Source: Thermodesulfobacterium hydrogeniphilum (GTDB lineage: Bacteria; Desulfobacterota; Thermodesulfobacteria; Thermodesulfobacteriales; Thermodesulfobacteriaceae). From it: 64,000 nt of DNA. The notes under the pieces were generated by a model. The model was not told the origin of the DNA and ran no database searches. It was given only the letters and a program-made list of their open reading frames with translations. Positions 22,146 to 50,159 of this stretch are shown here, one piece after another. Position numbers and translations under genes: made by a program. The stretch spans positions 124,001 to 188,000 of the forward strand of contig NZ_JQKW01000008.1 of assembly GCF_000746255.1 (NCBI RefSeq). Direction: 5' to 3'. Position 1 is the stretch's first letter; each line of letters opens with the position of its first letter.

Positions 22146-23133
22146 AGGTATAAAACCGAAATTTTTAATGCTTTTGATAACAAATAATTGCAATTTAAAT
22201 TGCGTTTATTGTTATAAAGATAAACATTCTAAAATTCAAGATATGCCCTTTGAAATAGCAGAAAAGTCACTGATTTTAGCAGGTTCTTCAAAAAATTATT
22301 TCCATGTGCAATTAACAGGTGGAGAACCTCTTCTTAATCCAGAACTTATAGAAAGATTAGCTAAATTTATTTATAAAAAAAACTTGACTGCATCCATAGG
22401 TATCCAAACCAATGGAACTCTTTTAGACAATGCTTTAATTAATATTTTTAAAAGATATAAAATTCAAGTAAGTATAAGTATAGATGGACCTCCAGAAATT
22501 CAGGAAATTTTAAGAGATAAATCAAATAAGGTTTTTGAAAAATTGAGACTTCTGGCAAAAAATGAAGTTCCTTTTAAAGTAGTATCTGTGATCAGCAATC
22601 TAAATATAAATTTTTTACCAAAACTTTTACTTTTGTTAAGTACTTTTCCCAATTTTGAGGGCATTGCCTTAAGCCTTCTTGTTAAAAAAGGGCAAGCCTT
22701 AAAAAATCCTCAAATAAAATTACCTGATATAAAAAAGTTCAAAGCGATTTTAAAGGAATTTTTAAAAACTCTGGATTTAGTTAATAGAATTAGGCTAAAA
22801 CCTGTAAAATTTAGAGAACTTGAAATATTTAAAAATAGAGTTGAAAAAAACTTGAAATATCCCTTTTGTTTTGCTTTAAAAGGTAAAAGCTTGGCTGTTT
22901 GTCCTGATGGAACACTTTATCCTTGTTCTCAAACAGTTGACGATCCCAATTTCTTCTCCGGAACCCTTGAAAAATTGAATTTTGATGGATTTTTAGCTTT
23001 AAAAAAGATTTCTATCCTTTGCCCAGAAGACTGCCCAAGTAGAACATATTATAACAATGCAGAAAACAAAAAGCTCATCCATGCTATGCATAAAATTTTT
23101 AGAGAACATTTAGACTTTGGAGGTAAAAATTGA
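22138..23133 (+). CDS. Radical SAM protein with SPASM-like C-terminus
   Basis: A 331-residue radical SAM enzyme. The cluster motif CNLNCVYC has C18, C22 and C25, followed by LTGGEPLLN for SAM binding and QTNGT. A second cysteine set near the C-terminus (PFCFALKG...LAVCPDGTLYPCSQ...ILCPEDCPS) resembles a SPASM auxiliary-cluster domain, usual in peptide- or protein-modifying enzymes. It overlaps the BtuF-like gene (8 bp) and cobN (TTGA), so it belongs to the B12-riboswitch operon. It is not a recognisable corrin enzyme, and no candidate precursor peptide is adjacent. Function unknown. Confidence 0.8.
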   Translation: MNKGIKPKFLMLLITNNCNLNCVYCYKDKHSKIQDMPFEIAEKSLILAGSSKNYFHVQLTGGEPLLNPELIERLAKFIYKKNLTASIGIQTNGTLLDNALINIFKRYKIQVSISIDGPPEIQEILRDKSNKVFEKLRLLAKNEVPFKVVSVISNLNINFLPKLLLLLSTFPNFEGIALSLLVKKGQALKNPQIKLPDIKKFKAILKEFLKTLDLVNRIRLKPVKFRELEIFKNRVEKNLKYPFCFALKGKSLAVCPDGTLYPCSQTVDDPNFFSGTLEKLNFDGFLALKKISILCPEDCPSRTYYNNAENKKLIHAMHKIFREHLDFGGKN

Positions 23134-26100
23134 AGCCCTTTGTTCTTTATTACTATAGTCCTTTTTCCTTGGAAATTTCATCTTTAAGCGCTGGAGTGAA
23201 AAAATTGAAAGATGAAGGTGAAAAAATAAAAGTTGTAGCCAGAACAGGTTCACAGCTTTTGAATAAAGAAATAGCGCAGAAATTTGTAAAAGAGGCTCTT
23301 ATAGCAGATGCAGTTTTTATAACTCTTCACGGTGGAAGACAATCCTGCCCTGTGTTTGATACATTAATGAAAGCTATTTCAGAGAGAAAAAATTCTGGAA
23401 AAAAAATTCCTTATCTTCATATCTATCCTTCTGGAAAAGATGAAGACGCCATTTTAGCAGCTCAAGAATATGCCCCAGATTTTGGAAAAGAACCATGGAT
23501 AATTTTAAATCGCTATCTTTCTTATGGTGGAACAGTCAATTTTTACAATATGCTTAAATATCTCCGGTATCTTTTATTTAAAGAAGAACTTTCTTTTGAC
23601 GAACCTATTAAACCTCCAGAAGAAGGTATTTATCACCCTGATTTTTCCAGAATATTTACTTTGAAAGAATATTATCCTTTAAAAATAGATCCTCAAAAAC
23701 CCACTATAGGAATCTGGTTTTATCAAAGTTACTGGTTAAATGATGATTTAGCCTATATTGATGCCATAATAAAAGAAGTAGAAAAACAAGGAGCAAATGC
23801 AATAGCTGTTTTCCATTTAAGATATAAAGATGCAGAAAGAGGAAATAAAGGTGCAGATTTTATAGTGGAAAACTTTTTTAAAAAAGATGGTAAAACAATT
23901 ATAGATTGTTTGATAAGCCCTATGTTATTTTCTTTGACTCTTTTTGCTCCAGAATATAAAGATCTTTTAAAATATTTAGATGTGCCTGTTCTTCAGGCTA
24001 TCCCTATGTGGACTTCTTATAAAGATTGGAAAGAAAGTTCACAGGGAATTTCTATTATGGATGTAGCATATTCTGTTGCCCAGCCTGAATTTGATGGAAA
24101 TCTGATAACTGTGCCTGTTGCCTCAAGAGAAGAAAGTGAAATAGATCCTCTTACAGGTGCTTTGATAGTAAAACAAATGCCTATACCAGAAAGAATAAAA
24201 AAAGTTGTCTCCTTAAGTTTGAATTGGGCTAAATTGAGAAGAAAAAAGAATAATGAAAAAAGAATAGCTATTATTTTTCATCACTATCCTCCAAGAAATG
24301 ATAGAATAGGATGTGCTGCCGGACTTGATAGTTTTGAAAGTGTAAAGGAATTAATAAACAGATTAAAAGGTGAAGGATATAAAGTAGAAAGAACTTATAA
24401 AAGTGGAGAAGAAATAATAAAAGAGCTTCTTTCTGGAATGACATGTGATCAAAGGTGGTTAATACCTGAAAAGATTTCAAAAGAATCTCAAGCTATTATG
24501 GAAGAATTAGAGATAGAAGAAAGTTTCAAAGATTTGCCAGAAAAAGTAAAAGATAAATTGAAAAGAGATTGGGGAGAACCTCCAGGAGAACTTTTTGTAT
24601 GGCAGAACAAAATGTATTTTCCTGGTATAATAAATGGAAACATTTTTATAACAATTCAACCTCCCAGAGGTTATTTAGAAAATATAGAAAAAATTTATCA
24701 TGATACAAACCTTTCTCCACCCTATTATTATTTAGCTTTTTACAGGTGGATTAAAAATGTTTTTAAAGCTGATGCTATTATTCATGTAGGGAAACATGGT
24801 TCTTTAGAATGGCTCCCTGGAAAATCCGCAGGGCTTTCCAAGAAGTGTTATCCTGATATTGCTATTATGGATCTTCCTAATATTTATCCTTATATTATAA
24901 ATGACCCCGGAGAAGGAACTCAAGCTAAAAGAAGATCTTATTGCTGTATTATAGACCATCTCACACCGGTTTTTACAAATGCAGATTTATATGAAGAGTT
25001 GGCTAAGGTAGAAAATTTATTAAATGAGTATGCAGATGCTCAAAGAGAAGATCCTAAAAAAATAGAAATTCTTAAACCTTTAATATGGAAGGCTGTATGT
25101 GAGGCTAATCTGGATAAAGATTTAAAAATAAAAAAAGAAGAAGCTTTTGCAGATTTTGAAAAATTTTTGAAATCTTTGCACAATTATTTGGATGAATTAG
25201 GAGATACTATAATAAATGATGGACTTCATATCCTTGGTAGACCTCCTGATGGAGATAGATTGGTAGAATTTTTAGTGCAATTGACACGCCTGCCTAATGG
25301 AGAAATTCCATCCTTAAGAGAGGCTATTTTAAAGATTTGGGGATATGATTATGATGAGCTACTTAAAAAGAAAAAAGAAAGAAAACTCATTCAGGAAGCT
25401 CATAAAATAGCTGGATCCATTATAAAAGAATTAGAAAGGGAAAATTTTTCTATAGAAGCTATAGAAAATATAACAAAAAAATATTTTGAGAAACCTGACA
25501 AAGAACTTAAAAAGGTTTTAAAGTATATTTGTGAAAATTTAGTTTTAAACATAAAAAAAACCTCTGAAGAAATAGACGCAACTTTAAAAGCACTTTCAGG
25601 AAGATTTGTTTCTCCAGGACCTTCTGGAGCTCCAACCCGTGGTCAGGCAGATATTCTACCAACAGGGAAAAATTTCTATTCAGTAGATCCTCTTCAAATT
25701 CCCACTCCCTCTGCCTGGGAAATAGGTAAACGACTTGCTGAAGAACTTATAGAAAAGTCTTTAAAAGAAACAGGAAAATATCCCTCCAATGTAGGAATAA
25801 TTTTATGGGGAACAGGCACTATGAGAACTAAAGGCGATGATGTAGCTGAAATTTTTTATCTTATGGGGGTAAGACCTCGTTGGGCTAAAGGTAGTGGAAG
25901 AGTAGAAGGATTAGAAATAATACCCCTTGAAGAGCTCGGTAGACCAAGAATTGATGTTACTGTAAGAATATCTGGATTTTTCAGAGATGCTTTTCCAAAC
26001 CTTGTAGAACTCATTGATGAAGCTGTAAAAACAGTTGTAAAAATAAAAGAACCTCCTGAAATGAATATACTGAGGAAAAATGTTTTAGAGGATATTAAAA

Positions 26101-26870
26101 AGTATATAAAAATGGGAATGAACGAAGGGGAGGCTTTTAGAGAGGCTACTTTTAGAGTTTTTGGATGTCCTCCGGGGACCTATGGAGCCGGTGTCTCAGA
26201 ACTTATAGAATCCAAAGATTGGAAAAATCAGGAAGATCTAGGAAATATTTATATAAAATGGAGTGCCTATGCTTATGGAAAAAATACTTACGGAAAATTT
26301 AAAACAGAAAACTTTAAAAATCTTCTTTCCAGAATGGAAGTTACAGTAAAAAATGAAGATACCAGAGAATATGATATTATGTCTTGCACAGATTATTATA
26401 ATTATTATGGAGGATTAATTGCAGCAGTTAAAACTGTTAAAGGAGATTGTCCCCTTTCTTTAGTAGGAGACTCTTCTGATCCAAAAAGAGTAAAAATAAG
26501 AACTTTGGCAGAAGAGACAAAACATATTTTGAGATCTCGTTTAGTTAATCCTAAATGGTTGGAAGGTATGAAAAGACATGGATATAAAGGTGCAGGAGAT
26601 ATTTCTTATGTGCTTGATATTGTGTTTGGCTGGGATGCAACTACAGAAGTAATAGAAGATTGGATGTATGAAGAAATTGCCAGAAAATATGCCCTGAATA
26701 AAGAGATGCAGAAGTGGCTTAAAAAGGTTAATCCCTATGCCTTGCAAAATATCATTGAAAAATTGCTTGAAGCCATTTCCCGTGGGATGTGGAAAGCAGA
26801 TAAAAAAACAGAAAAACAACTAAAAAAAATTTATTTAGAAATCGAAGGAGAAATAGAAAAACTTATATAA
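23130..26870 (+). CDS. cobN: Cobaltochelatase large-subunit-like protein CobN (full length)
   Basis: A 1246-residue CobN/BchH family protein, the tetrapyrrole-binding subunit of ATP-dependent class I chelatases. The signature HVGKHGSLEWLPGKSAGLSK is near the middle, and the C-terminal block contains SPGPSGAPTRGQADILPTG and [12 protein letters not shown]. It begins at an unusual TTG, supported by GGAGG (23119-23123) and a TTGA overlap with the radical SAM stop. It lacks the CAGARC cysteine cluster found in the second, split CobN. No AAA+ subunits are adjacent; it may share those at 50-53 kb. Its role beside CbiK is unclear. Confidence 0.88.
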   Translation: MKPFVLYYYSPFSLEISSLSAGVKKLKDEGEKIKVVARTGSQLLNKEIAQKFVKEALIADAVFITLHGGRQSCPVFDTLMKAISERKNSGKKIPYLHIYPSGKDEDAILAAQEYAPDFGKEPWIILNRYLSYGGTVNFYNMLKYLRYLLFKEELSFDEPIKPPEEGIYHPDFSRIFTLKEYYPLKIDPQKPTIGIWFYQSYWLNDDLAYIDAIIKEVEKQGANAIAVFHLRYKDAERGNKGADFIVENFFKKDGKTIIDCLISPMLFSLTLFAPEYKDLLKYLDVPVLQAIPMWTSYKDWKESSQGISIMDVAYSVAQPEFDGNLITVPVASREESEIDPLTGALIVKQMPIPERIKKVVSLSLNWAKLRRKKNNEKRIAIIFHHYPPRNDRIGCAAGLDSFESVKELINRLKGEGYKVERTYKSGEEIIKELLSGMTCDQRWLIPEKISKESQAIMEELEIEESFKDLPEKVKDKLKRDWGEPPGELFVWQNKMYFPGIINGNIFITIQPPRGYLENIEKIYHDTNLSPPYYYLAFYRWIKNVFKADAIIHVGKHGSLEWLPGKSAGLSKKCYPDIAIMDLPNIYPYIINDPGEGTQAKRRSYCCIIDHLTPVFTNADLYEELAKVENLLNEYADAQREDPKKIEILKPLIWKAVCEANLDKDLKIKKEEAFADFEKFLKSLHNYLDELGDTIINDGLHILGRPPDGDRLVEFLVQLTRLPNGEIPSLREAILKIWGYDYDELLKKKKERKLIQEAHKIAGSIIKELERENFSIEAIENITKKYFEKPDKELKKVLKYICENLVLNIKKTSEEIDATLKALSGRFVSPGPSGAPTRGQADILPTGKNFYSVDPLQIPTPSAWEIGKRLAEELIEKSLKETGKYPSNVGIILWGTGTMRTKGDDVAEIFYLMGVRPRWAKGSGRVEGLEIIPLEELGRPRIDVTVRISGFFRDAFPNLVELIDEAVKTVVKIKEPPEMNILRKNVLEDIKKYIKMGMNEGEAFREATFRVFGCPPGTYGAGVSELIESKDWKNQEDLGNIYIKWSAYAYGKNTYGKFKTENFKNLLSRMEVTVKNEDTREYDIMSCTDYYNYYGGLIAAVKTVKGDCPLSLVGDSSDPKRVKIRTLAEETKHILRSRLVNPKWLEGMKRHGYKGAGDISYVLDIVFGWDATTEVIEDWMYEEIARKYALNKEMQKWLKKVNPYALQNIIEKLLEAISRGMWKADKKTEKQLKKIYLEIEGEIEKLI

Positions 26871-26890: not shown

Positions 26891-28003
26891 TTGCAAGATC
26901 TGTATTCTAATATTTTTAATCATGGAGGAAATTTGTCTTCCTTAGAAAAATTTTTAAATCGTAAAATCTTGGATTTTAGCAGTAATATCAACCCTTATGC
27001 TTTACCTTACATTAAAAATTTTTTTCAGAAAAACACAAACTCTATTGCTGAAGCAATTTCTAAATATCCTGATCCAGAAGCTAAGGAATTGACTCAGAAA
27101 CTTGCTGAATACTGGGATATTACTCCTGAAAATATTCTATGTGGGAATGGTGCTACAGAACTTATTTATTTAGTTCCAAAAGCCCTAAATCTTAAACATG
27201 CCCTTATTTTAATACCAACTTTCTCTGAATATGAAAGAGCTTTAAAATTGATAAATGCTAAAATTTCTTTTTATTTGTTAGAAGAAAGTAAAAATTTTGT
27301 ACCTGATTGGGAAAATTTAATAAATTTTCTAAAATCTCAAAACTCCATAGATAGTATATTTATTTGTAATCCTAATAATCCTACAGGAAATCTGATTTTA
27401 GACTTGGAAAAAATCCAAAAACTACTATCTCTAAATGCTTTTGCAATTATTGATGAAAGCTTTATGGACTTTTTGTATAAGGAAAAAAAGTATACTGCAA
27501 TTAAACTTACACAAATTTATCAAAATTTAATCATTATTAGAAGTTTTACTAAATTTTTTGGAATTCCTGGTTTAAGATTGGGATATTTAATTTCTCATCC
27601 TAAAACTATAAATAAAATTAAAAATTTTTTAATGCCATGGAATGTAAATGGATTGGCCCAGGCTTTAGCAAATTATCTATTGGAGTATAAAATCCAGATA
27701 GATGAAACAAAAAAAATTATTGCTAAAGAAAAAGAAAAATTTTTAAATTATTTTGCAAGTTCTAAAATTTTTAAAGCCTTTTCCTCTGTTACCAATTTTT
27801 TATTGATAAAAATTAACACTCCTTATATTAACTCTGAAGCCTTAACCCAGAAATTTCTTAAAAATGGTATTTTAATCAGAGATTGTAAAAATTTCAGAGG
27901 ATTAAATAATAAATTTTTTAGAATAGCTATAAAAACTTCAGAAGAGAATACTTTATTTTTAAAAATTTTAGAGAATATACTGGAGAAATTACAAAATGGA
28001 TAA
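26891..28003 (+). CDS. cobD: Threonine-phosphate decarboxylase-like aminotransferase CobD
   Basis: A 370-residue fold-type I PLP enzyme. The start FNHGGNLSSLEKF and LDFSSNINPY are the CobD/CobC signature that separates it from histidinol-phosphate aminotransferase. FICNPNNPTGN, IIDESFMDF and RSFTKFFGIPGLRLGY (PLP lysine in SFTK) complete the active site. CobD makes (R)-1-amino-2-propanol phosphate, attached by CbiB. A TTG start follows GGGAGAA. It overlaps the DUF71 gene by 8 bp. Confidence 0.87.
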   Translation: MQDLYSNIFNHGGNLSSLEKFLNRKILDFSSNINPYALPYIKNFFQKNTNSIAEAISKYPDPEAKELTQKLAEYWDITPENILCGNGATELIYLVPKALNLKHALILIPTFSEYERALKLINAKISFYLLEESKNFVPDWENLINFLKSQNSIDSIFICNPNNPTGNLILDLEKIQKLLSLNAFAIIDESFMDFLYKEKKYTAIKLTQIYQNLIIIRSFTKFFGIPGLRLGYLISHPKTINKIKNFLMPWNVNGLAQALANYLLEYKIQIDETKKIIAKEKEKFLNYFASSKIFKAFSSVTNFLLIKINTPYINSEALTQKFLKNGILIRDCKNFRGLNNKFFRIAIKTSEENTLFLKILENILEKLQNG

Positions 28004-28655
28004 AAAAGCCTTTGCCTGTTGGAGTGGGGGTAAAGATTGCACTCTTGCAGTTTTTAAGGCTCTAAAAGATGGATGGAAAGTATGCTATTTAGTTAACATG
28101 TTACAGCCTGATGGAAAAAAAAGCAGGTCTCATGGGCTCCCTGCTGAACTTTTAAAACTTCAGTCTCAAGCCTTAGGTATTCCTATTATTCAAAAAAAGA
28201 GTAGCTGGGAAGATTATGAAAACTCATTTAAAGAAATTTTAAAAGATTTAAAAAAAAGAGGTATTAATACAGGAATTTTTGGAGACATATATTTACAGGT
28301 TCATAGAAATTGGGTGGAAAGAGTTTGTAAAGAATCTGGAATAACTCCTCTTTTACCTCTTTGGCTAAAAGATACAGAAACACTCATTAATGAATTTGTG
28401 AATGCAGGTTTCAAGGCCTTAATAGTTTCCATCAATAAAAATTTTCTTGGAAAAGAATGGCTGGGACAGGAAATAAATAGAGATTTTATAGAAAAGGTTA
28501 AAAAATTAGGAAATATAGACCCTTGTGGAGAAGAAGGAGAATTTCACTCTTTTGTATATGATGGACCCATTTTTAAAAAAAGGGTAAAATTTAAAAAAGG
28601 AAAAATTTATCAAGAAGGTAAAAGGCTCTATTTAGAATTAATACCTTTGACTTAA
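27996..28655 (+). CDS. DUF71/COG2102 ATP-pyrophosphatase, B12-salvage type
   Basis: A 219-residue PP-loop ATPase with CWSGGKDCTLA near the N-terminus and CGEEGEFHSFVYDGPIF near the end, the signature of the Dph6/DUF71 family. Archaeal and eukaryal relatives amidate diphthine; bacteria lack diphthamide, and a bacterial subgroup linked to cobalamin genes has been predicted from comparative genomics to act in B12 salvage. Its position between cobD and cobU fits that prediction, and an amidation or ligation step on a corrinoid side chain is plausible. Confidence 0.82.
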   Translation: MDKKAFACWSGGKDCTLAVFKALKDGWKVCYLVNMLQPDGKKSRSHGLPAELLKLQSQALGIPIIQKKSSWEDYENSFKEILKDLKKRGINTGIFGDIYLQVHRNWVERVCKESGITPLLPLWLKDTETLINEFVNAGFKALIVSINKNFLGKEWLGQEINRDFIEKVKKLGNIDPCGEEGEFHSFVYDGPIFKKRVKFKKGKIYQEGKRLYLELIPLT

Positions 28656-30230: not shown

Positions 30231-30991
30231 AAAAACTTTTTATAGCTTTCTCTTTTTTAACCTTACTACCTGTAAGGTTAAAAGATATAACTGTGGAAGA
30301 CATTAAAAATTCCGTTATTTTTTTTCCATGGGTGGGTGCTTTTGAAGGACTTGCTTCTTTTTTAGCTGTTTTTATCTGCAAAAATTTTTTGCCTGTTGAA
30401 TTTTTGGCTCTTCTGGTATTAATAGTTATCTTTCTTATAAGAGGTATTTTCCATCTGGATGGGCTTTCTGATACTTTTGATGCCTTATTTTACAAATCCT
30501 CTGGTAATGGAGATTTTGATAGAAAAAAACGGCTTACTATTATGAAAGATAGCACAGTAGGTGTAGGAGGTGTTTGTGCAGTTTTTATGGATCTTCTTTT
30601 TAAATTTACTTTATTAAAATTTATCTTTACAAATCTTTTCTATTTCTGGCATTTAATTTTTACTTTTAGTTTTTCAAGATGGGCTCTACTTCCTCTGATG
30701 TATCATGGAAAACCCGCTAAAAAAGAAGGATTAGGAGCTATTTTTGTAGGAAGATTAAGTTTTAAACATATTTTACTGGGTTCTATTTTGCCTTTTTCCT
30801 TGCTAACTTTTTACATTTTTAAAACTAAAAAACTAATTTTTTTATTTTTTCCTGTTTTTCTCTATTTAACCAGTTTTTTTATAAATAGAGTCTGTATTAA
30901 GAAATTTGGGGGAATTACAGGTGATAATTTAGGAGCTACAGTAGAAATAAGCGAAATAATAGGTCTTTTTTTCTGGGGATTTTATGGCTAA
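30227..30991 (+). CDS. cobS: Adenosylcobinamide-GDP ribazoletransferase CobS
   Basis: A 254-residue integral membrane protein with six or seven hydrophobic segments. The [14 protein letters not shown] motif, with metal-binding aspartates, and [15 protein letters not shown] are diagnostic. CobS joins AdoCbi-GDP and alpha-ribazole (phosphate) in the last step of cobalamin assembly. It overlaps cobT (ATGA) and cbiP (8 bp). Confidence 0.93.
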
Positions 30992-32465
30992 AGCTTTGAT
31001 GATACAAGGAACATCTTCTGGAGCAGGAAAAAGTTTATTGGTAACCGCTCTATGCAGGATCGCAAAAAACTTGGGATTTAAAGTTGCACCCTTTAAAGCA
31101 CAAAACATGAGTTTACAGAGTTTTATTACTAAAAATGGTGGAGAAATAGGTCTTGCTCAGGCTTTACAAGCCATGTCTGCTGGATTAGAACCTGAAATAC
31201 ACATGAACCCCATCCTTCTTAAAGCTGATGGGAATAAAGGCTCTCAAGTAATTATTCATGGAAAGGTTTATAAAACACTTAAACCTAAGGAATATTATGC
31301 AGAAAAAAAGAAGCTCTGGAATAAAGTTTTGGAATCTCTTGAATATTTAAAAAAACACTATGAATTGCTTATAGTTGAAGGAGCAGGAAGCCCTGCTGAG
31401 ATCAATCTCAGAGATAGTGATATTGTAAATATGGCTGTAGCTGAATATCTAAAGGCACCTGTTATTTTGGTGGGAGATATAGATAAAGGTGGTGTCTTTG
31501 CCTCTCTTTATGGCACTATAAAACTGGTGGGCAAATCTGAAAAACTAATTAAAGGCTTTATAATAAATAAATTTAGAGGAGATGTAGAGATTTTAAAACC
31601 TGGAATAAGAGAGATAGAAAAACTTTGCCAGAAACCCTGCTTGGGAGTTCTTCCATATTTTGAAGAGCTTAGCCTTTCTTCTGAAGATAGCCTCGGACTT
31701 TCTTATCACAAAACTTTTTCTTCAGAGAAAAACAAACTTATTAAAATTGTAGTTTTAAGACTGAAATATATTTCCAATTTTAGCGATTTTGATCCTTTGA
31801 AATATGAGCCAGATGTAGAGCTTTTATATTCTCTGAGAAAAGAGGAACTTCTTTCTGCAGATGTAGTTATTATTCCTGGATCAAAAAGGACTGTGGAAGA
31901 CCTTTTATGGCTAAAGAGCCTTAAAATAGATAAAATTTTAAAATATCTTGCAGAAAAGGGAGTTGAAATTATAGGTTTGTGCGGTGGTTTTCAAATGCTT
32001 GGAAAAATTTTAAAAGATCCAGAAAAGGTAGAAAGCGATTTAAAAGAAATCAAAGGGCTTGGGCTTCTTGATATAGAAACCACTTTTTATCCCAAAAAAA
32101 TAACCACACAGGCAGAAGGTTATTGTAATCTTAAAGAGAATTTAAAAATCTGGGGCTATGAAATACATATGGGAGAAAGTGAGGGAGATTTAAATCTTTT
32201 TACCATTAAAAGATTTGCTACAAAAGAGATAAAAAAAGAGGGATCTCAAAAAGAAAGTATCTGGGGAACTTATCTTCATGGAATTTTTGAAAATGACGAT
32301 TTTAGAAGATTTATTCTTAACAAAGTAAGAGAAAAAAAGGGACTCACTCCCTTAGAAAAAAGCTACTCCTATAAAAAACTTAGAGAAATTACTTTTAATA
32401 CCTTGGCTAAATTAGTAGAAACACATCTCAATATGGAAAAAATCTGGAGTTTGATAAAGCTATGA
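30984..32465 (+). CDS. cobQ: Cobyric acid synthase CobQ/CbiP
   Basis: A 493-residue glutamine-dependent amidase that amidates four side chains of adenosylcobyrinic a,c-diamide. The ATP-binding domain starts with MIQGTSSGAGKSLLV and contains KAQNMSLQSF and EGAGSPAEINL. The glutamine amidotransferase domain has the Cys nucleophile in GLCGGFQMLG and the histidine in GTYLHGIFEND. It overlaps cbiB by 4 bp. Confidence 0.95.
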   Translation: MAKALMIQGTSSGAGKSLLVTALCRIAKNLGFKVAPFKAQNMSLQSFITKNGGEIGLAQALQAMSAGLEPEIHMNPILLKADGNKGSQVIIHGKVYKTLKPKEYYAEKKKLWNKVLESLEYLKKHYELLIVEGAGSPAEINLRDSDIVNMAVAEYLKAPVILVGDIDKGGVFASLYGTIKLVGKSEKLIKGFIINKFRGDVEILKPGIREIEKLCQKPCLGVLPYFEELSLSSEDSLGLSYHKTFSSEKNKLIKIVVLRLKYISNFSDFDPLKYEPDVELLYSLRKEELLSADVVIIPGSKRTVEDLLWLKSLKIDKILKYLAEKGVEIIGLCGGFQMLGKILKDPEKVESDLKEIKGLGLLDIETTFYPKKITTQAEGYCNLKENLKIWGYEIHMGESEGDLNLFTIKRFATKEIKKEGSQKESIWGTYLHGIFENDDFRRFILNKVREKKGLTPLEKSYSYKKLREITFNTLAKLVETHLNMEKIWSLIKL

Positions 32466-33494: not shown

Positions 33495-34109
33495 ATGGAG
33501 AAATTTTTAAAAAATCTTAAAGATTTTGAAATAGAAAGTAAAAGCATGGATATTATTGAAAATGAAGTAAATTTATCAGGTTTTTCTTCCTTAGAAAAAG
33601 AGATTGTAAAAAGAGTTATTCATGCTACAGCAGACTTTGAATACAAAGACACTTTGAAATTTCATCCTCAGGCTATTTCTCTTGCCTTGAAAAATCTTAA
33701 AGAGGAGAAAAATATTCTGGTAGATGTAGAGATGCTGAGAGCTGGAATTTCTAAAAGATTTCTTGGAAAAATAAAAGTCCTTTGCTACCTTGACAAAATA
33801 AAAAATTATGAAACTACCAGAACAGAAAAAGCTATAGAGCTTGCTTTAGAAAAAGAAAAAAATTTAGGAATTGTAGCTATTGGCAATGCTCCTACAGCGC
33901 TTCTTAAAGCTATAGAAATTTTTCAAAAAAAAGAGATAAAAAATATAGTTTTAATAGGATTGCCAGTAGGATTTGTAAATGCTTTTTCTGCCAAGCTTTT
34001 ACTTTCTAAACAAGATTTTCCTTATATTACCAATTTAAGCAGAAAAGGGGGATCTCCTGCCACTGCAGCAGTTATAAATGCTTTTTTAAAACTAAAGGAG
34101 ATTTTTTAA
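33495..34109 (+). CDS. cbiC: Precorrin-8X / cobalt-precorrin-8 methylmutase CbiC
   Basis: A 204-residue CbiC/CobH. HATADFEY carries the catalytic histidine, and late GNAPTALLKAIE, GLPVGFVNA and SRKGGSPATAAVINA are conserved. It moves the C11 methyl to C12 to form (cobalt-)hydrogenobyrinate. Its last base is the first base of cobF (TAATG), so the two are translationally coupled. Confidence 0.94.
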   Translation: MEKFLKNLKDFEIESKSMDIIENEVNLSGFSSLEKEIVKRVIHATADFEYKDTLKFHPQAISLALKNLKEEKNILVDVEMLRAGISKRFLGKIKVLCYLDKIKNYETTRTEKAIELALEKEKNLGIVAIGNAPTALLKAIEIFQKKEIKNIVLIGLPVGFVNAFSAKLLLSKQDFPYITNLSRKGGSPATAAVINAFLKLKEIF

Positions 34110-34858
34110 TGAGAAAAGTATATCTTATTGGAATAGGACCTGGAGATCCTAAGTTTTTAACGCTTCAGGCTATAGAAACTATTAAAAATTTAAAAACCTT
34201 TCTCATTCCCGCTAAAAAAGGAAACAAAGAAGACTTAACCAGAATAAGGAAAAATATCCTTAAATTTGTCCATCCAGAAGAAAACTATGAATTAATAGAG
34301 CTTAATTTTCCCGAGAGGAAAAAGGGGAGAAATTACAGAGAAAAAATAAAACAATGGAGGAAAGAAAAAGCACGGATTATCATAGAATTTTTAAAAAGCA
34401 GAAACTCTTTAAAAGAGGTAGGATTCCTAATTATAGGAGACCCTTGTCTTTATGATGGACATATTGAAATTTTTAAAGAGGTTCAAAAGGAGATACCTTT
34501 AGAAATAGAGGTAATTCCTGGTATTTCAGCCATGCAGATTCTTTCTGCTAAATGCAAAACCTCTTTAAATGAAATAGCTGGAACTATTACAATTACCACT
34601 TCAAGAGGTTTAAGAAAAATGAAAAATATTTTTAATACTACTGTAGTTTTTCTGGATAATTATGAAACCTTTAAACTTTTTAAAAATCAGCCTTTAGAAA
34701 TTTACTGGGGAGCCTATCTTGGCACCGAAAAAGAAAAACTTATTGCAGGAAAATTAAAAGATGTAGCAGACACAATTTTAAAAGAAAGAAAAGAATTAAA
34801 AAACAAAAATAAATATATTATGGAAATCTATTTTTTAAAACCCTTTAAAGATGCCTAA
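34109..34858 (+). CDS. cobF: CobF-type precorrin C1-methyltransferase (precorrin-6A synthase, deacetylating)
   Basis: A 249-residue SAM-dependent class III methyltransferase starting with IGIGPGDPKFLTLQA. It is CobF rather than another corrin methylase: IPAKKGNKEDLTRIRK near residue 33, an ERKKGRNY-x9-W insertion, IGDPCLYDGHIEIF at 109-122, VIPGISAMQ, ITTSRGLRK at 162-170, and the C-terminal block EIYWGAYLGT (197-206)...IMEIYFL. CobF methylates C1 with loss of acetate in the aerobic pathway. Here it sits among anaerobic cbi genes where CbiD would be expected, so it presumably works on a cobalt-precorrin. It overlaps cbiET by 8 bp. Confidence 0.88.
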   Translation: MRKVYLIGIGPGDPKFLTLQAIETIKNLKTFLIPAKKGNKEDLTRIRKNILKFVHPEENYELIELNFPERKKGRNYREKIKQWRKEKARIIIEFLKSRNSLKEVGFLIIGDPCLYDGHIEIFKEVQKEIPLEIEVIPGISAMQILSAKCKTSLNEIAGTITITTSRGLRKMKNIFNTTVVFLDNYETFKLFKNQPLEIYWGAYLGTEKEKLIAGKLKDVADTILKERKELKNKNKYIMEIYFLKPFKDA

Positions 34859-36065
34859 ATTGTATATTATAGGAATTGGATTTAAACCTCTGGAAGATAG
34901 GGTTAAAAAGCTTCTATTGGATGTTCCTTATATTATAATCTCAACAAGACTTGTAGAAGTATTTAAAAACTATGAAATTTACCCTCTGGTAAAAGAAAAA
35001 TTGGTTTTAATGAAAAGTTTTAAAGAAACCATGTCTTTTGTAGAAGAAAAACTTAAAAATAGTAATTTAGCACTTTTAGCATCTGGAGATCCTCTTTATT
35101 TTGGTATAGGAGTAAAGGCTTTAGAAAAGTTTGGAGAAGAGCAGGTTGAAATCTATCCTGATCTTAACTGTTTACAAAAAGGTTTAAGTCTTATTAAAAA
35201 ACCTTGGCACCAAATAAAAACTATAAGCTTACATGGAAGAGCTGTGAATTTTAATTATCTTATTAGTTTGCTTAAAAAAGAGGGAAAGGTTTGTATCCTT
35301 ACAGACTCACGAAATAATCCTTCTTTTATAGCTCAGGTTCTTCTGAAAAAATTTCCTCAACCTGAAAAATTAACCTTTTATGTTTTTGAGAGATTAGGTT
35401 ATCCAGAAGAAAAAGTATTTGTAAATAAACCTCAGATAATAGCTAAAACCAAATTTAAAGATCCTAATTTTTTTATCATAAACTACGAATTTTCTGATGA
35501 TGAAGATATAATCTTTGGTCTGGAAGAAAAGGAAATAGCACATCAAAAGGGAATGATTACAAAAGATGAAATAAGAGCTATAGTAATTCACAAATTAAGG
35601 CTTCCTGAAAAAGGAATAATCTGGGATATAGGTGCAGGGTCTGGCTCTGTAAGTCTTGAAATAGCCAGACTAAATCCTAAATTGAAAGTTTATGCCATAG
35701 AAAAAGGAAATACTGAACTTATAGAAAAAAATAAAAATCGTTATTATATTAGTAATTTGGAAATTATAAAAGGTATAGCTCCTGAATGCTTAAAAAATCT
35801 TCCATCTCCTAACAGAGTTTTTATTGGAGGTAGTGGAAACAAATTAAAAGAAATTTTAGAATTTCTCTCAGGGATTTCTTCTCTTAAAACTGTAGTTCTT
35901 ACAGCTGTTACATTAAAAACCTTGGATACTTCTTTAAAATATTTGAGAAAAAATTTTCGTAAAGTTGAAGTTTTTCAAATAAATGTTACAAAATTAGAAA
36001 ATTTTCAAGATAATTTAATTTTAAAAGCCAAAAATCCTATTTTTATAATTAGAGGAATAAGATGA
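34851..36065 (+). CDS. cbiET: Precorrin-6B/7 C5,15-methyltransferase-decarboxylase, CbiE-CbiT fusion
   Basis: A 404-residue two-domain enzyme. The N-terminal about 200 residues are CbiE, with an IGIGFKPL start and LLASGDPLYFGIG. The C-terminal part is CbiT, with the Rossmann-methyltransferase motif GIIWDIGAGSGSVSLEIARL and RVFIGGSGNKL. It is equivalent to aerobic CobL; together the domains methylate C5 and C15 and decarboxylate the acetate on ring C. It overlaps neighbours on both sides by 4-8 bp. Confidence 0.93.
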   Translation: MPKLYIIGIGFKPLEDRVKKLLLDVPYIIISTRLVEVFKNYEIYPLVKEKLVLMKSFKETMSFVEEKLKNSNLALLASGDPLYFGIGVKALEKFGEEQVEIYPDLNCLQKGLSLIKKPWHQIKTISLHGRAVNFNYLISLLKKEGKVCILTDSRNNPSFIAQVLLKKFPQPEKLTFYVFERLGYPEEKVFVNKPQIIAKTKFKDPNFFIINYEFSDDEDIIFGLEEKEIAHQKGMITKDEIRAIVIHKLRLPEKGIIWDIGAGSGSVSLEIARLNPKLKVYAIEKGNTELIEKNKNRYYISNLEIIKGIAPECLKNLPSPNRVFIGGSGNKLKEILEFLSGISSLKTVVLTAVTLKTLDTSLKYLRKNFRKVEVFQINVTKLENFQDNLILKAKNPIFIIRGIR

Positions 36066-36742
36066 AACTTTATGTAGTAGGTATAGGTCCTGGGAATCCA
36101 GAACTTTTAACTCTTAAAGCTAAAAATATTCTTGAAAAGATATCCCTTATTTTTTATCCTACAGGAGGGAAAAATAGAACAGCTCTTTCTATAATAGAAA
36201 AAATCGTAGATCTTAAACACAAAACTCTTATTCCTCTCCATTTTCCTATGAAAAAAACCAGAAATACAGATTTAAATCTTCACTGGCAGAAGCTTGCAGA
36301 AACAATTTTAAAAAATTTGGAATTTTTTAAAGAAGCTGTTTTTATAACTCTGGGAGATCCTTCATTTTATTGCACTTTTTTTTATTTATATCCCTTTTTA
36401 AAAGATAAAATAAAAGTTAAAATTATTCCTGGAGTTAGTTCTATTAATGCCTGTGCCTGTGCCATTCCTGTAAGTCTTGCCTTAGGAGATGAAACCATAG
36501 CTATTATTCCTGCTAATTATGTAAATAGAATCAAAAATCTTCTTTATGAATTTAATACCATAATTTTTATGAAACCCCATAAATCTCTAAATAAAATTTT
36601 TGATTTTTTAGAAGATGAGAAATTTCAAGTTTACGGAGTAAAAAACGCCTCAAGTTCTGAAGAAAAAATCTTTTTAGATATAGATGATTTTAAAAAAGAA
36701 GATTTAAATTATTTTACTACTATAATTGTAAGGAAAAAATGA
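36062..36742 (+). CDS. cbiL: Cobalt-precorrin-2 C20-methyltransferase CbiL
   Basis: A 226-residue class III methyltransferase. GIGPGNPELLTLKA is followed by FYPTGGKNRTALSII, LHFPMKKT, ITLGDPSFYCTFFYL and IIPGVSSINACACA; the FPM and GDPSFYCTF features mark CbiL/CobI rather than CbiF or CbiH. It performs the second ring methylation after CobA-type C2/C7 methylation, which is not encoded here. ATGA overlaps on both sides. Confidence 0.92.
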   Translation: MKLYVVGIGPGNPELLTLKAKNILEKISLIFYPTGGKNRTALSIIEKIVDLKHKTLIPLHFPMKKTRNTDLNLHWQKLAETILKNLEFFKEAVFITLGDPSFYCTFFYLYPFLKDKIKVKIIPGVSSINACACAIPVSLALGDETIAIIPANYVNRIKNLLYEFNTIIFMKPHKSLNKIFDFLEDEKFQVYGVKNASSSEEKIFLDIDDFKKEDLNYFTTIIVRKK

Positions 36743-37488
36743 AAGTTTATTTTGTAGGAGCAGGACCAGGGGATCCAGAACTTCTCACTTTAAAAGCCTA
36801 TAAGCTTCTAAAATCAGCTGATTGTGTAATTTTCCCAGGAAGTTTAATTAACAAAGAAATTTTAAAAATTACTAAGGGTGATCTTTATGATTCTTCTAAA
36901 ATGTGTTTAGAAGAACTGATTACTGTTATGGAAAAGTATATCAAAAAGACCAAAAAAGTAGTGAGACTTGTGAGTGGAGATCCTTTTATTTATAGTGCTA
37001 TTCAGGAACAGATAGAGATTTTAAGAGAAAAAAACATTCCTTATGAAGTTATCCCTGGTATCTCTTCTGCTATGGCTGGAGCAGCTAAAATGGGAATAGA
37101 ATTAACCTTGCCAGAAATTTCCAACTCTGTTATTTTTACCAGAATAGAAGGTAAAACCTCTGGAGCTTCCTCTGAAGAAATTAAAAGTTTTGCTAAAACC
37201 AAATCAACTCTTGTTTTCTTTTTAAGTGCCGGGCTTGGTGAGAAGCTTGAAAAAACGCTTTTAGAAATCCTTCCTTCTGAAACACCTATTATTATAGCCT
37301 ATAAAGTTACACAAAAAGGAGAAAAAATAATTTTTGGGAATCTTAAAGACCTTTCTAAAATACTTTATAAAAATAATATTAAAAAAACAGCTCTTATTTA
37401 CGTAGGAGAAACTTTGAGGACTTTTAAAGAGAATCTTGGTAAAAAATCCAAACTCTACAATAAAAACTTTAAAAATGGAAAAGAATAA
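36739..37488 (+). CDS. cbiF: Cobalt-precorrin-4 C11-methyltransferase CbiF
   Basis: A 249-residue class III methyltransferase. VGAGPGDPELLTLKA, DCVIFPGSLIN, RLVSGDPFIYSAIQEQ, VIPGISSAMAGAA and the late FTRIEGKTS match CbiF/CobM. It methylates C11 after ring contraction by CbiG/CbiH. The 3' end overlaps cbiGH by 14 bp. Confidence 0.93.
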   Translation: MKVYFVGAGPGDPELLTLKAYKLLKSADCVIFPGSLINKEILKITKGDLYDSSKMCLEELITVMEKYIKKTKKVVRLVSGDPFIYSAIQEQIEILREKNIPYEVIPGISSAMAGAAKMGIELTLPEISNSVIFTRIEGKTSGASSEEIKSFAKTKSTLVFFLSAGLGEKLEKTLLEILPSETPIIIAYKVTQKGEKIIFGNLKDLSKILYKNNIKKTALIYVGETLRTFKENLGKKSKLYNKNFKNGKE

Positions 37489-39241
37489 AGCTATTATTTA
37501 TCTTTCTGAAAAAGGAAGAGAAATCGCAGAAAAAATTAGAAGTATTTTTCCTGAAGCTAAATTATATAAATTTAAAAAAGAGCTTCTTCATGAAATATGG
37601 AATAAATATAATGCCTTTATTTTTGTTTCTGCCATAGGTGTAGCTATAAGATGCATAGCATCTTTTATAAAAAATAAAAAAGAAGATCCTGCGATAATTG
37701 TAATAGATGAAGAAGGGAAAAATGTAATTCCTCTTTTAGGAGGACACTCTGCAGAAGCTAATAGTTTAAGTCTGACCATTGCCTCTTTTATTAAGGCTAA
37801 TCCTGTTATAACTACTGCCTCTGATCTTAAAAATCTTCCTGCTCTTGATTTGTGGATAAAAAAAACCGGATTAAAGATTAAAAATCCCTTTCTCCTGCCT
37901 AAAATTATGGCAAAATTCAATTCCTCAAAAGAACTAAAAATTTTTTTAAACACTCAGGTAAAACTCCCCTTTCCTAAGCACTTTTCTCTTGTTTCTACAA
38001 TTTCAGAAGCAGATATAATTGTAACAAACAAATTTATAAAAGATGTAGATGAAAATAATCAATTAGTTCTTATACCTAAGAATTTATTTGTAGGGATAGG
38101 GTTTCACGATTGGATAAAAGAAGAGGATTTGGAGAAAACATTAAAAGAGGTTTTTAAAGAGGCAGGGTTTTATTGGGAAGCTCTTTCTGGAATAGCAACT
38201 ATTCAGAAAAAAGGCTCTCATCCTGCTTTAAAAAAATTATCAGAGAGATACAAAATTAAACTTTTTGCTTTTACTTCAAAAGAGCTAAATCAAGTAAATA
38301 GTTCAAGCCCTCCTGGAGCATCTATGAAAACTCTTGGAGTAGCTTCAGTTTCAGAACAGGCAGCCCTTTTTTCAGCTTTTACTGAATTTCAAAAGGCTTT
38401 TTTGTGTGTTCCCAAACAAGTTTTCAAAGACCTTACCATAGCCATAGCTGAAGGTGTTTATAAAATTAAAGGTAAGCTTTATATTGTAGGCACAGGACCA
38501 GGTGATTTAGAAAATCTTACCCCTAAAGCTATTTCTATTTTGAGAAGCTCTGATTTTATTGTGGGTTATAAAACTTATATAAATTTAATAAAACCTCTTA
38601 TTGAAGATAAGGAAATTTTAGCTTATGGAATGATGGAGGAGGTAGAAAGAGCTAAAATTGCTATTAAAAAGGCTTTAGAAGGAAATGTGGTAAGCTTAAT
38701 TAGTGGAGGAGATCCTGGAATTTATGGAATGGCAGGACTTGTTTTGGAAATTTTGTCTAAAAATAGCTTAGATTTAGAAATAGAGATAATTCCTGGCATT
38801 TCTGCTTTAAATGCCTGTGCCTCTTTAGCTGGTGCACCTCTTATGAATGACTTTGTAGCAATAAGCCTTTCTGATAGACTAACTCCCTGGGATGTTATAG
38901 AAAAAAGATTGCATTTAGCAGGAAAAGGAGATTTTGTAATAGTTTTATATAATCCAAAAAGTAAAGGAAGAAAAGAGCATTTATCTAAAGCCAAAAATGT
39001 TCTTCTTTCTTATAGAAAATCTGAAACCCCTGTAGCTATTATAAAAGGAGCTTTTAGAAAAAATCAGGAAATTATTTTAACCACACTAAAGAAGATAGAT
39101 TTATATCCTATAGATATGCAAACTACTATAATTATAGGAAATTCTAATAGCTTTATTTTTAAAAATTGGCTGATCACTCCCAGAGGATATGAGGTAAAAT
39201 ATGGAGAAAAATTGCAATTTAGCAGCCCTTCTTTGGGATGA
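37475..39241 (+). CDS. cbiGH: CbiG-CbiH fusion (cobalt-precorrin-5A hydrolase / C17-methyltransferase)
   Basis: A 588-residue fusion. The first about 330 residues are CbiG: FVSAIGVAIRCIA, LLGGHSAEAN and a C-terminal GIGFHDW...PPGASMKTLGVASVSEQAAL domain. The rest is CbiH: YIVGTGPGDLENLTPKA, SLISGGDPGIYGMAG, IIPGISALNACASLAGAPLM and VLYNPKSKGR. Together they contract the ring and release acetaldehyde. The ATG at 37475 is chosen; a TTG 13 codons earlier would lie deeper inside cbiF and has no better Shine-Dalgarno. Fusions of these two domains are known in anaerobes. Confidence 0.92.
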   Translation: MEKNKAIIYLSEKGREIAEKIRSIFPEAKLYKFKKELLHEIWNKYNAFIFVSAIGVAIRCIASFIKNKKEDPAIIVIDEEGKNVIPLLGGHSAEANSLSLTIASFIKANPVITTASDLKNLPALDLWIKKTGLKIKNPFLLPKIMAKFNSSKELKIFLNTQVKLPFPKHFSLVSTISEADIIVTNKFIKDVDENNQLVLIPKNLFVGIGFHDWIKEEDLEKTLKEVFKEAGFYWEALSGIATIQKKGSHPALKKLSERYKIKLFAFTSKELNQVNSSSPPGASMKTLGVASVSEQAALFSAFTEFQKAFLCVPKQVFKDLTIAIAEGVYKIKGKLYIVGTGPGDLENLTPKAISILRSSDFIVGYKTYINLIKPLIEDKEILAYGMMEEVERAKIAIKKALEGNVVSLISGGDPGIYGMAGLVLEILSKNSLDLEIEIIPGISALNACASLAGAPLMNDFVAISLSDRLTPWDVIEKRLHLAGKGDFVIVLYNPKSKGRKEHLSKAKNVLLSYRKSETPVAIIKGAFRKNQEIILTTLKKIDLYPIDMQTTIIIGNSNSFIFKNWLITPRGYEVKYGEKLQFSSPSLG

Positions 39242-40460
39242 GTCTTATCTTTATGGAATCTGGCTTTATCAGGCTCTTTTAAAATCTCGTATAAATTTTG
39301 ATCTTATAAAAGCTTCTGAGCTTACAAAATTAGAAAAATATAAAATCCTTTTTGTTCCTGGGGGATGGGCTTCTAATAAAATTAAAGCACTTGGATCTAA
39401 AGGTGCAAGTTATATTAGAAGATTTGTAAAAAAAGGAGGAATTTATTTTGGAATTTGTGGAGGCGCAGGGCTTGTTACTTCTGAAGAGTTAAATTTAGTA
39501 AATATAAAAAGAAAAAAACAGAGAGTTCCGGCTTTTAGTGGGAAAATAAAAGCTAAACTTTATTCTCATCCTCTTTGGCAAGGAATTAATATCCCTGAAT
39601 TTTATCTCTGGTGGCCCTCTGAATTTTTGTTAGAAGAAACTAACAATATGAAAATTTTGGCAAAATTTGATAAAGCCTTAAAAGATTCTTTTTCTTCTGA
39701 TTTGCCTGTTCGAGACTTTCAAAATCTCTGGAAAGAAGCGGAAAAGCTTTACGAAATCTTTCTTAATCCAGAAAGAATGAAAAATACCCCTTTATTAATA
39801 GAAATTACTTATGAAAAAGGTAAGATTTATTTATCTCTTATTCATTTTGATACCCCTGGAGATAAAAATGGCTTAAGAGTTTTAAAAAATATTAAAAATC
39901 TTTTTAATTTAGCCCCTTTAAAACCAAGAACTTTTAAAAATTTTTCTATCTTTAAAAAATCCCCAAATTATTTTTTAGCCAAAACAATTATCAGGTTTTT
40001 ATTAAAAGAAATGGAAGAAATAATGATTTTAGGTGAGAGAAATTTTCTATGGTTTAAAAGGCATCCAGAAATCTATCAATGGAAAAGAGGAATAAGAGGT
40101 TCGGAATATGTTAATCTCTGGTACATGCTTAAAATCTTAAAAAAGAACTTTATCTATTTTCCTTTTACTGATATTCCTTTAAAAAAGCTTAAAGAGATTA
40201 AAATAGATTTAAAAAAATTTTCTAAAGAGGCTAAAAAGCTTTTAGCAAAAGAAAGATTAGCTTTACAAAAAGATAAAATAATTTTTAACTTTTGTGAAGA
40301 CGAAGAAATAAATGAATTAAGAACTTTTCTTTTTGGTAAAAGTAAGAGTTATGGAGGGTATTATAAAACTCTTATAAAAAAAATAGATGAGGTGCTTTTT
40401 GAAGTGTTAAAAACAAAGCTTATTCTGATAAAAGGTCTGCATTCCAAAGAGAAAGAGTAA
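39201..40460 (+). CDS. GATase-like (biotin-protein-ligase N-domain type) protein in B12 locus
   Basis: A 419-residue protein. The first about 230 residues resemble the BPL_N class I glutamine-amidotransferase-like fold: ALLWDESYLYGIW, ILFVPGGWASNKI and a nucleophile elbow GICGGAGL with C86. The remaining about 190 residues match nothing I recognise and are rich in Lys, Phe and Leu. GAGGT precedes its ATG, which lies 41 bp inside cbiGH, so it is co-translated with the B12 genes. CbiA, the glutamine-dependent a,c-diamide synthase, is not in the window, but this protein lacks the CbiA ATP-binding half. Function unknown. Confidence 0.65.
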   Translation: MEKNCNLAALLWDESYLYGIWLYQALLKSRINFDLIKASELTKLEKYKILFVPGGWASNKIKALGSKGASYIRRFVKKGGIYFGICGGAGLVTSEELNLVNIKRKKQRVPAFSGKIKAKLYSHPLWQGINIPEFYLWWPSEFLLEETNNMKILAKFDKALKDSFSSDLPVRDFQNLWKEAEKLYEIFLNPERMKNTPLLIEITYEKGKIYLSLIHFDTPGDKNGLRVLKNIKNLFNLAPLKPRTFKNFSIFKKSPNYFLAKTIIRFLLKEMEEIMILGERNFLWFKRHPEIYQWKRGIRGSEYVNLWYMLKILKKNFIYFPFTDIPLKKLKEIKIDLKKFSKEAKKLLAKERLALQKDKIIFNFCEDEEINELRTFLFGKSKSYGGYYKTLIKKIDEVLFEVLKTKLILIKGLHSKEKE

Positions 40461-45442: not shown

Positions 45443-46252
45443 ATGTTGGAAATCAAAGAACTTTGGTTTAAACATAAAGGGCAAAAGGAGGATATTTTAA
45501 AAAATGTGAGTTTTACTACAGAAAAAAGAAGACTAACAGTAATACTTGGTCCTAATGGCTCTGGAAAAAGCACACTTTTTAAATGTATAACAGGGATATG
45601 GAAACCTTACAAAGGTTCAATTTTGGCAGATGGAAAAGAGATTAACAAACTTTCTCACTTGGAAAGAGCTAAAATTTTTGCAGTTGTTCCTCAGGAGCAT
45701 GAGCCAGCTTTTCCTTATTCTGTATTTGATATAGTTTTAATAGGCAGAGCTCCTTATGTTGGGCTTTTTTCTTCACCTAATTCAAAGGATTATAAAAAGG
45801 CAGAACAAGCTCTTCAGATCTTGGGAATCTATCATCTGAGAGATAAACCTTATAATAAAATAAGTGGAGGCGAAAAACAACTGGTGCTTCTTGCAAGAGC
45901 TTTAGCTCAAGAAGCACCTTTTATGCTTCTTGATGAACCCACTTCTAATTTAGATTTCAAAAATCAAATAAAAGTGCTCTCCAAAATAAAAAAATTGGCT
46001 TATGAAAAAGGGCTTACAGCTTTGGTTACTTTACATGATCCAAACCTGGCAAGCCTGTTTGCAGATAAAATTATACTAATTAAAAATGGCAAAATAGTGG
46101 CAGAAGGTAAACCTGAAAAAATTTTAAACGAAAAACTTATAGAGAAGATTTACGGAGTGAAAGTGCGAATTGTGCAAAACAATGGCTTTAGATTAATATT
46201 TCCTATTTTAGAAACTTCATGTATAAACAAGCCTTTGGAGGCACAAAAATGA
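45443..46252 (+). CDS. ABC transporter ATPase, BtuD/FecE-like
   Basis: A 269-residue ATPase: Walker A LGPNGSGKSTL, Q-loop VVPQEHE, signature ISGGEKQLVLLARALAQ, Walker B FMLLDEPTSNLD and switch histidine in VTLHDPNLA. It energises the permease just upstream. The ATG at 45443 starts 2 nt after the permease stop; an in-frame TTG at 45428 is less likely. The stop overlaps the next start as ATGA. Confidence 0.93.
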   Translation: MLEIKELWFKHKGQKEDILKNVSFTTEKRRLTVILGPNGSGKSTLFKCITGIWKPYKGSILADGKEINKLSHLERAKIFAVVPQEHEPAFPYSVFDIVLIGRAPYVGLFSSPNSKDYKKAEQALQILGIYHLRDKPYNKISGGEKQLVLLARALAQEAPFMLLDEPTSNLDFKNQIKVLSKIKKLAYEKGLTALVTLHDPNLASLFADKIILIKNGKIVAEGKPEKILNEKLIEKIYGVKVRIVQNNGFRLIFPILETSCINKPLEAQK

Positions 46253-48639: not shown

Positions 48640-48666
48640 ATCTTAAAAGCAAGGAGGTGAAGAAGT

Positions 48667-50148
48667 GTGAATATTAAAGAAGTTCTTAAAAAGATAAACT
48701 GGAAAGACCCGGTCTGGCAAAAAATAAAGGAAGAAATTTTGGATTTAAATCGCAGGATTGAAGAATCTAAGGAAATAAAAACTCTTTTAAATGGATTTAG
48801 TGGAGGATATATTCCAGCTGGGCCTTCTGGGCTTATTACTCGTGGAAGAGATGATGTTTTACCCACAGGAAGAAACTTTTATAGTCTTGATCCCTATAGA
48901 ATTCCTACTAAATCTGCCTATGAAATTGGGAAAAGGCTTGCAGAAAAACTTATAGAAAAACATTTAAATGAAGAAAGTCGTTATCCTGAAAATGTGGCTA
49001 TTTTTTGGATGGCAAGTGATGTAATGTGGGCTGATGGAGAAGGAATGGCTCAGATTATGCACCTCATTGGAGTTAAACCTATTTGGCTTCCTAACGGAAG
49101 AATAAAAGGTTTTGAGATAATTCCTTTGGAAAACCTTGGACGTCCAAGGATTGATGTAACTATAAGGGTTTCAGGAATAACAAGAGATAACTTCCCTAAT
49201 TGTATAGAACTAATTGATGAAGCCATTCAAAAAGTAGCAAGTCTTGATGAACCACCTGAAAAGAATTTTGTAAAAAAGCATACTCTGGAAATTATGAATA
49301 AAAATGGAGGAGATTTTAGAGCAGGAACTCTTCGCATTTACTGCTCCATGCCTGGAACTTATCAAGCAGGAACGCAATTAGCAGTTTATGCCTCTGCCTG
49401 GAAAGAAGAAAAGGACCTTGCAGAAGTATTTCTTTACTGGAATGGATATGCCTATGGCAAAGGTATTTGGGGAGAAGCCAAACATAAAGAATTTGCAGAA
49501 GTTTTAAGAAGTGTGGATATTACTTACAATAAAGTTGTATCAGATGAATATGATTTATTCGGATGTTGCTGTTATTTTGGAACCCATGGAGGGATGACTG
49601 CAGCTGCCAGATACTTATCTGGAAAAAATGTAAAAACCTATTATGGAGATACCAGAGATCCTGAAAATGTAGAAGTGAGAGATTTAGCAGATGAAATAAG
49701 AAGAGTGGTAAGAACTAAACTTCTAAATCCTAAATGGATTGAAGGGATGAAAAGACATGGTTACAAAGGTGCAGGAGATATATCTAAAAGAATTGGTAGA
49801 GTTTACGGCTGGGAAGCTACTACTCAAGAAGTGGATGACTGGATTTTTGATGACATTGCAAGAACCTTTGTTATGAATAAAGAAAATAGGGAGTTTTTTA
49901 AAGAAAACAACCCTTGGGCTTTGGAAGAAATAGCAAGAAGACTCTTAGAAGCTTGGGAAAGGGGACTGTGGGATCCTGCAGAGGATGTTAAAAAAGCCCT
50001 TAAAAAAGTTTACTTAGAAATTGAAGGCTGGCTGGAAGATAGCATTGGAGATGTAAAAGGTGATTTTCAAGGAGGAAGTATTGACATTGTAACTGCAGAA
50101 GAAGTAAAATACTGGAAAAAGAAAATGCAAAAAATAATAAATGTCTAA
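48667..50148 (+). CDS. CobN-like chelatase large subunit, C-terminal part (split gene)
   Basis: A 493-residue protein equal to the C-terminal third of Cob[60 protein letters not shown] and the [17 protein letters not shown] block. It has its own GGAGGT ribosome-binding site and a GTG start, 27 nt after the stop of the first part. This is therefore an ordered split with conserved domains on both sides, not a simple frameshift. The two chains presumably associate to form one chelatase subunit. Confidence 0.87.
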
Positions 50149-50159
50149 AGGAGGTTACT

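Follow-up and report, generated by a model that had tools for sequence, protein, structure and literature searches.

Two marker enzymes usually separate the routes to B12: CobF marks the oxygen-dependent route and CbiD the anaerobic one; the two proteins are unrelated and differ in fold. CbiG is an enzyme of the cobalt route. In the anaerobic route, CbiG removes a two-carbon fragment as acetaldehyde and CbiD then methylates C1, whereas the aerobic CobF does both (PMC7242693). CbiD has been suggested as a substitute for a missing CobF in the Methylobacterium plasmid pCMU01 and in Streptomyces (PMC3621897). Magnusdottir et al. 2015 apply a PubSEED rule, '(CobF or CbiD)', to either route, and none of their gut genomes had CobF (PMC4403557). 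According to Shelton et al. 2018, annotated gene content cannot separate the two routes (PMC6461909).

Here we analysed a 64,000-nucleotide stretch of the Thermodesulfobacterium hydrogeniphilum genome (the window), in which a CobF gene lies among cbi genes. At a probability of roughly 80%, we propose that this CobF takes the place of CbiD in methylating C1 in an oxygen-independent corrin pathway with early cobalt insertion, acting after CbiG. The ring genes are tightly packed in the order cbiC-cobF-cbiET-cbiL-cbiF-cbiGH, as follows.

33495-34109, plus strand: cbiC (precorrin-8 methylmutase); PF02570, 204 bits; shares 1 base with cobF
34109-34858, plus strand: cobF, 249 aa; probable C1-methyltransferase in the cbiD slot, assigned by TIGR02434 match, predicted fold and tree
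34851-36065, plus strand: cbiE-cbiT fusion; TIGR02467 and TIGR02469 above cut-off; 8-base overlap with cobF
36062-36742, plus strand: cbiL (C20 methyltransferase); TIGR01467, 199 bits, above cut-off
36739-37488, plus strand: cbiF (C11 methyltransferase); TIGR01465, 260.7 bits, above cut-off
37436-39241, plus strand: cbiG-cbiH fusion (lactone hydrolase / ring contraction); PF11760, PF01890 and TIGR01466 above cut-off
39201-40460, plus strand: putative BPL_N-like protein; weak PF09825 match; directly 3' of cbiGH

The overlaps of cobF with both of its neighbours therefore make it a member of a tight operon. A BPL_N-like protein (39-53% identity) follows cbiGH in most Nitrospirota and in several Thermodesulfobacteriaceae cobF clusters. 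Elsewhere in the window, a Dph6-like ATP pyrophosphatase gene (27996-28655) sits between cobD and cobU in the cob operon, and a fluoride riboswitch is found on the minus strand at 63238-63303.

The initial annotation had named the C1 methyltransferase as CobF, and three lines of evidence bear this out. In profile searches, the 34109-34858 product reached 232.7 bits with TIGR02434, the curated model for CobF (cut-off 195.8), with CbiL as the runner-up family at 92.6 bits, and it had no match to the CbiD profile PF01888. The solved folds closest to its AF2 model (pLDDT 93.6) were the CobF structures 3nd1 (Z 28.1) and 2npn (Z 26.0), the best CbiL reaching Z 21.4. In a tree with 20 CbiL, CbiF, CbiH and CbiE proteins, it grouped with all CobFs (SH-aLRT 99), inside that family and not outside it. 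Curated scores, tree and fold together rule out that the protein is CbiL or another tetrapyrrole methylase. The further list of the remaining ring enzymes (CbiK, CbiL, CbiF, CbiG-H, CbiE-T and CbiC), given there as cobalt-early in type, also stands, each of them having been recovered by profiles.

The source genome (1.69 Mb in 13 contigs; estimated completeness 100%, contamination 0.2) was scanned by profile searches, on which all whole-genome statements rest. PF01888 had no match anywhere in it, so that the absence of CbiD noticed in the cluster extends to the whole genome and a cbiD located elsewhere is ruled out. Neither CobG nor CobZ was found above cut-off in the whole genome, which rules out a hidden aerobic pathway; the weak CobG matches spanned the C-terminal half only, as expected for sulfite reductase relatives. 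Incompleteness of the genome is ruled out as the cause by its completeness of 100% and by the identical pattern in three independent genomes (G128, G269 and G072). CbiJ (PF02571) also lacked a match in the whole genome, leaving the pathway with another gap besides CbiD, one that is common to CbiD-bearing relatives (no PF02571 match in G289 and G014) and has been reported for delta-proteobacteria (PMC545781).

The single CbiA/CobB-family gene of the source genome lies on another contig, C13 (L136:9795-11183), directly 3' of dsrMKJOP-like genes, and therefore may be a DsrN serving both pathways, B12 synthesis included; the DsrK-like protein near it carries iron-sulfur and CCG domains, as a DsrK should. 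Four congeneric genomes (G028, G065, G100 and G204) had neither CbiD nor CobF above cut-off, and this species may be unusual within its own genus in making B12.

Across the phylum, CobF was above cut-off in 5 of 297 genomes: the source genome (G000), two members of the same family (G128 and G269), G072 and G014. CbiD was absent from the first four in whole-genome profile searches, while G014 has both CobF and CbiD, its cobF lying apart from the cob cluster. CbiD was present, with no CobF above cut-off, in the same-family G289 and in the order relatives G155, G180, G227 and G248. A scan of GTDB species genomes yielded seven more anaerobe CobFs with 43-59% identity, the next ones, mostly aerobic, being at 34-40%. 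No intact CbiD was found in the whole genomes G297-G303, where G300 has a fragment only. Altogether, the anaerobe-clade genomes searched whole (G000, G128, G269, G072 and G297-G303) had no intact CbiD (0/11) and no CobG or CobZ above cut-off, and all 11 had CbiG_N. Most of the aerobic controls had CobG, and two Chromatiaceae had CobZ and lacked CbiG.

On the Nitrospirota side (the phylum of G302), CobF was above cut-off in 13 of 296 genomes, G302 included. The other 12 clusters, where the contigs reach, contain cbiX-C, cobF, cbiET, cbiL, cbiF and cbiGH with no cbiD nearby, the absence of CbiD in these 12 referring to the cob neighbourhood. Surveyed in this way, cobF without cbiD recurs in anaerobes of both Thermodesulfobacteriota and Nitrospirota. 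An in-frame CobF-CbiT fusion, possibly an assembly error, was seen on the L041 contig of a Nitrospiraceae UBA665 genome (L144:9194-10636); the stretch fetched around it has no CbiE, and the cluster of its sister G594 (L185) has CbiE without CbiT.

The 23 CobFs of Thermodesulfobacteriota and Nitrospirota anaerobes formed a single clade (UFBoot 100, SH-aLRT 99). In this weakly rooted tree, the clade appears to lie within the aerobic CobFs, adjoining Halochromatium. The G014 CobF falls outside this clade and is a separate acquisition. An alphaproteobacterium, Devosia (L148; G304:C9), has CbiX, CbiG and CobF, with no CbiD and no CobG or CobZ above cut-off; it is apparently an independent hybrid outside the anaerobe clade.

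That CobF stands in for CbiD, as had been proposed from the window alone, is supported by the way in which one gene takes the place of the other. The cbiD-containing clusters of G289 and G227 have the order cbiC-cbiD-cbiET-cbiF-cbiGH, with cbiD in the slot held by cobF in the window. The CobFs of G072, G300, G301 and G303 are 80-85% identical to that of G299, a Thermodesulfovibrionia MAG of the Nitrospirota, whereas their CbiE, CbiT, CbiC, CbiF, CbiG and CbiH are 33-53% identical to those of G299. These identities indicate that cobF was transferred by itself into existing anaerobic operons of the four genomes. The excess identity does not reflect slow evolution of CobF, because between G299 and G334 CobF (61%) is less conserved than CbiF and CbiH (78-79%). 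In G300, an 81-codon frame (L039:5070-5315) directly upstream of cobF, which starts at 5528, matches the N-terminus of CbiD (PF01888 positions 1-54, 39 bits, 7e-10); this stub was missed by tblastn with one CbiD query and found by the PF01888 profile. The 101-aa frame that follows it had no Pfam match and was ruled out as further CbiD. In the lineage of the window, CbiF and CbiH share 64-65% identity with their G407 counterparts and 45-51% with those of the same-family G289, so that the operon seems to have travelled as a block.

These observations also bear on whether some unrecognised enzyme methylates C1 while the CobF-like protein serves another role. The CbiJ gap shows that unknown enzymes exist in the pathway of the source genome, but the slot replacement, the transfer of cobF by itself and the cbiD remnant next to it link this gene to the loss of cbiD, and the core CobF residues are conserved in the alignment of the anaerobe clade. 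We therefore regard such an enzyme as very improbable, and CobF as the probable C1-methyltransferase.

The CbiG of the source genome is encoded by an intact gene (PF11760, 1.2e-32, and PF01890), and the residues conserved in CbiG proteins encoded beside cbiD are also kept in those encoded beside cobF, including that of the window. With CbiG kept in this state, CobF would only need to methylate C1 of cobalt-precorrin-5B. CobF might instead methylate cobalt-precorrin-5A at C1 and itself expel the two-carbon fragment, CbiG being dispensable or otherwise engaged. Coupled deacetylation is indeed the known reaction of CobF (PMC7242693), and the fold and conserved core are retained; however, CbiG_N occurs in all 11 genomes searched and the conserved CbiG residues show no decay, although redundancy would predict it, and we consider this direct reaction unlikely. 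A decayed CbiG with CobF covering both steps is ruled out by the same residues. The pathway context also argues against methylation of metal-free precorrin-5 at C1 with release of acetate by the window CobF. Methylation after CbiG would remain the preferred order. Genes that bear on the entry of cobalt, and others upstream of the ring genes, are as follows.

17058-17353, plus strand: cobalamin riboswitch; RF00174, 53.2 bits; upstream of cbiK and cob genes
17474-18358, plus strand: cbiK; PF06180; NF047852 at 231.6 bits, short of the cut-off (400)
23130-26870, plus strand: CobN-type large chelatase subunit; TIGR02257, 1050 bits, above cut-off
30984-32465, plus strand: cobQ/cbiP (cobyric acid synthase); profile match

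The cbiK gene, which precedes the ring genes by some 15 kb, is the sole gene for a class II chelatase that the searches of the source genome recovered. Translation from its first start (17474) gives an export-like, signal-peptide-like N-terminus. A second in-frame ATG at 17558 is preceded by a strong Shine-Dalgarno sequence (AAAAAAGGAG-TTGCT upstream), and dual localisation of CbiK from the two starts is possible, the start at 17558 giving a cytosolic form. Besides the intact CobN, there is a split CobN-type subunit (46219-48639 and 48667-50148) with a ChlI-like gene after it (46219-51170 overall). In relatives, cobF has a CbiX-CbiC fusion as a neighbour, next to which G299 carries cobalt transporter genes. 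Early insertion of cobalt is well supported in these relatives and is less certain in the source genome, because of the export-like CbiK start and the CobN/ChlID-type genes nearby.

Cobalt could accordingly be inserted late in the source genome, by CobN with a ChlI/ChlD pair, CobF then working on metal-free intermediates within an anaerobic pathway. The sole CbiK, export-like at its start and lying within a transport-like gene group, together with the full CobN and the split set, would fit such an order; but the second CbiK start would yield a cytosolic enzyme, the operons of the nearest cobF relatives include CbiX-CbiC fusions, CbiG is part of the cobalt route, and cobalt chelatase annotations are exclusive to neither route (PMC6461909). 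We judge late insertion to be quite unlikely and retain the cobalt-early reading.

The anaerobe CobFs also carry a residue signature. Among 23 anaerobe and 22 other CobFs, aligned and compared with set thresholds for fixed differences, two columns passed, 117 and 118, directly after the GDPxLYD motif. Position 117 is Gly in 23/23 of the anaerobe clade and Ser in 18/22 of the others; position 118 is His in 23/23 and Thr in 21/22, respectively, His118 being absent from every CobF examined outside the clade (0/22). In the window, the pair is encoded as follows.

34457-34462, plus strand: Gly117-His118 codons, GGA CAT

Both solved CobFs (3nd1 and 2npn) have Ser-Thr at these positions, G014 and Devosia (G304) have Gly-Thr, and Chromatiaceae have Gln-Thr. 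Tyr5 is invariant in the anaerobe clade and rare outside it. Position 117 corresponds to Arg111 of NirE by motif alignment, not by residue-level structural superposition; in NirE, this arginine contacts the side chains of rings A and D, and its replacement by lysine lowers activity by 94% (PMC4731766; PMC9539859). From these alignments we infer a role of Gly117-His118 in substrate contact. More tentatively, and with rather more doubt than confidence, the anaerobe clade might be a distinct enzyme, a cobalt-precorrin-5B C1-methyltransferase of the tetrapyrrole-methylase fold that replaces CbiD, in which His118 contacts the substrate or its cobalt, Gly117 leaves space for the cobalt intermediate, and the two residues track the change from the oxygen to the cobalt route.

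In the pathway that we propose, CbiK (CbiX in relatives) would insert cobalt into sirohydrochlorin, CbiL, CbiH and CbiF would produce cobalt-precorrin-5A, and CbiG would open the ring-A lactone with release of acetaldehyde. CobF would then methylate C1 of cobalt-precorrin-5B with SAM, with no deacetylation of the kind that accompanies this step in the aerobic pathway. A single capture of an aerobic-type CobF by an anaerobe probably stood at the outset. The enzyme would then have gained the Gly-His pair, in the loop with which NirE contacts rings A and D of its substrate, and would have passed between Nitrospirota and Thermodesulfobacteriota, in some cases as a lone gene displacing cbiD. Of these points, the substrate, the reaction order and the direction of transfer are inferred.

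On this evidence, CobF appears able to function without CobG, probably on cobalt intermediates. By CobF/CbiD marker logic, a genome of this kind would be scored as incomplete, or misassigned. The natural lone-gene transfers, together with a cbiD stub in one genome, come near to a complementation experiment, and the true requirement of CobF (the acetyl group, a metal-free ring, or C1 alone) becomes testable, with two candidate residues at hand.

Searches of open-access literature turned up no account of CobF taking the place of CbiD in anaerobes, nor of the anaerobe CobF clade, the single-gene replacement of cbiD or the Gly-His signature. The PubSEED rule already permits CobF in the CbiKX/CbiG route; in its accessible part, that source presents a pathway rule without clade, transfer or residue evidence (PMC4403557). 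The evidence for the swap of CobF for CbiD thus appears to be new, though one published rule allowed it. In the Methylobacterium plasmid pCMU01 and in Streptomyces, the same pair of enzymes was treated as interchangeable in the opposite direction and in aerobic organisms (PMC3621897). With CbiD (cobalt-precorrin-5B C1-methyltransferase, PF01888), the window CobF would share its reaction, and it shares the slot between cbiC and cbiET. With the aerobic CobF, precorrin-6A synthase (deacetylating) (TIGR02434; 3nd1, 2npn), it shares family, fold, length, the GDPxLYD motif and the core residues; in contrast to that enzyme, it occurs with CbiG and without CobG or CobZ, has Gly117-His118 in place of Ser-Thr, and its expected substrate would carry cobalt and no acetyl group.
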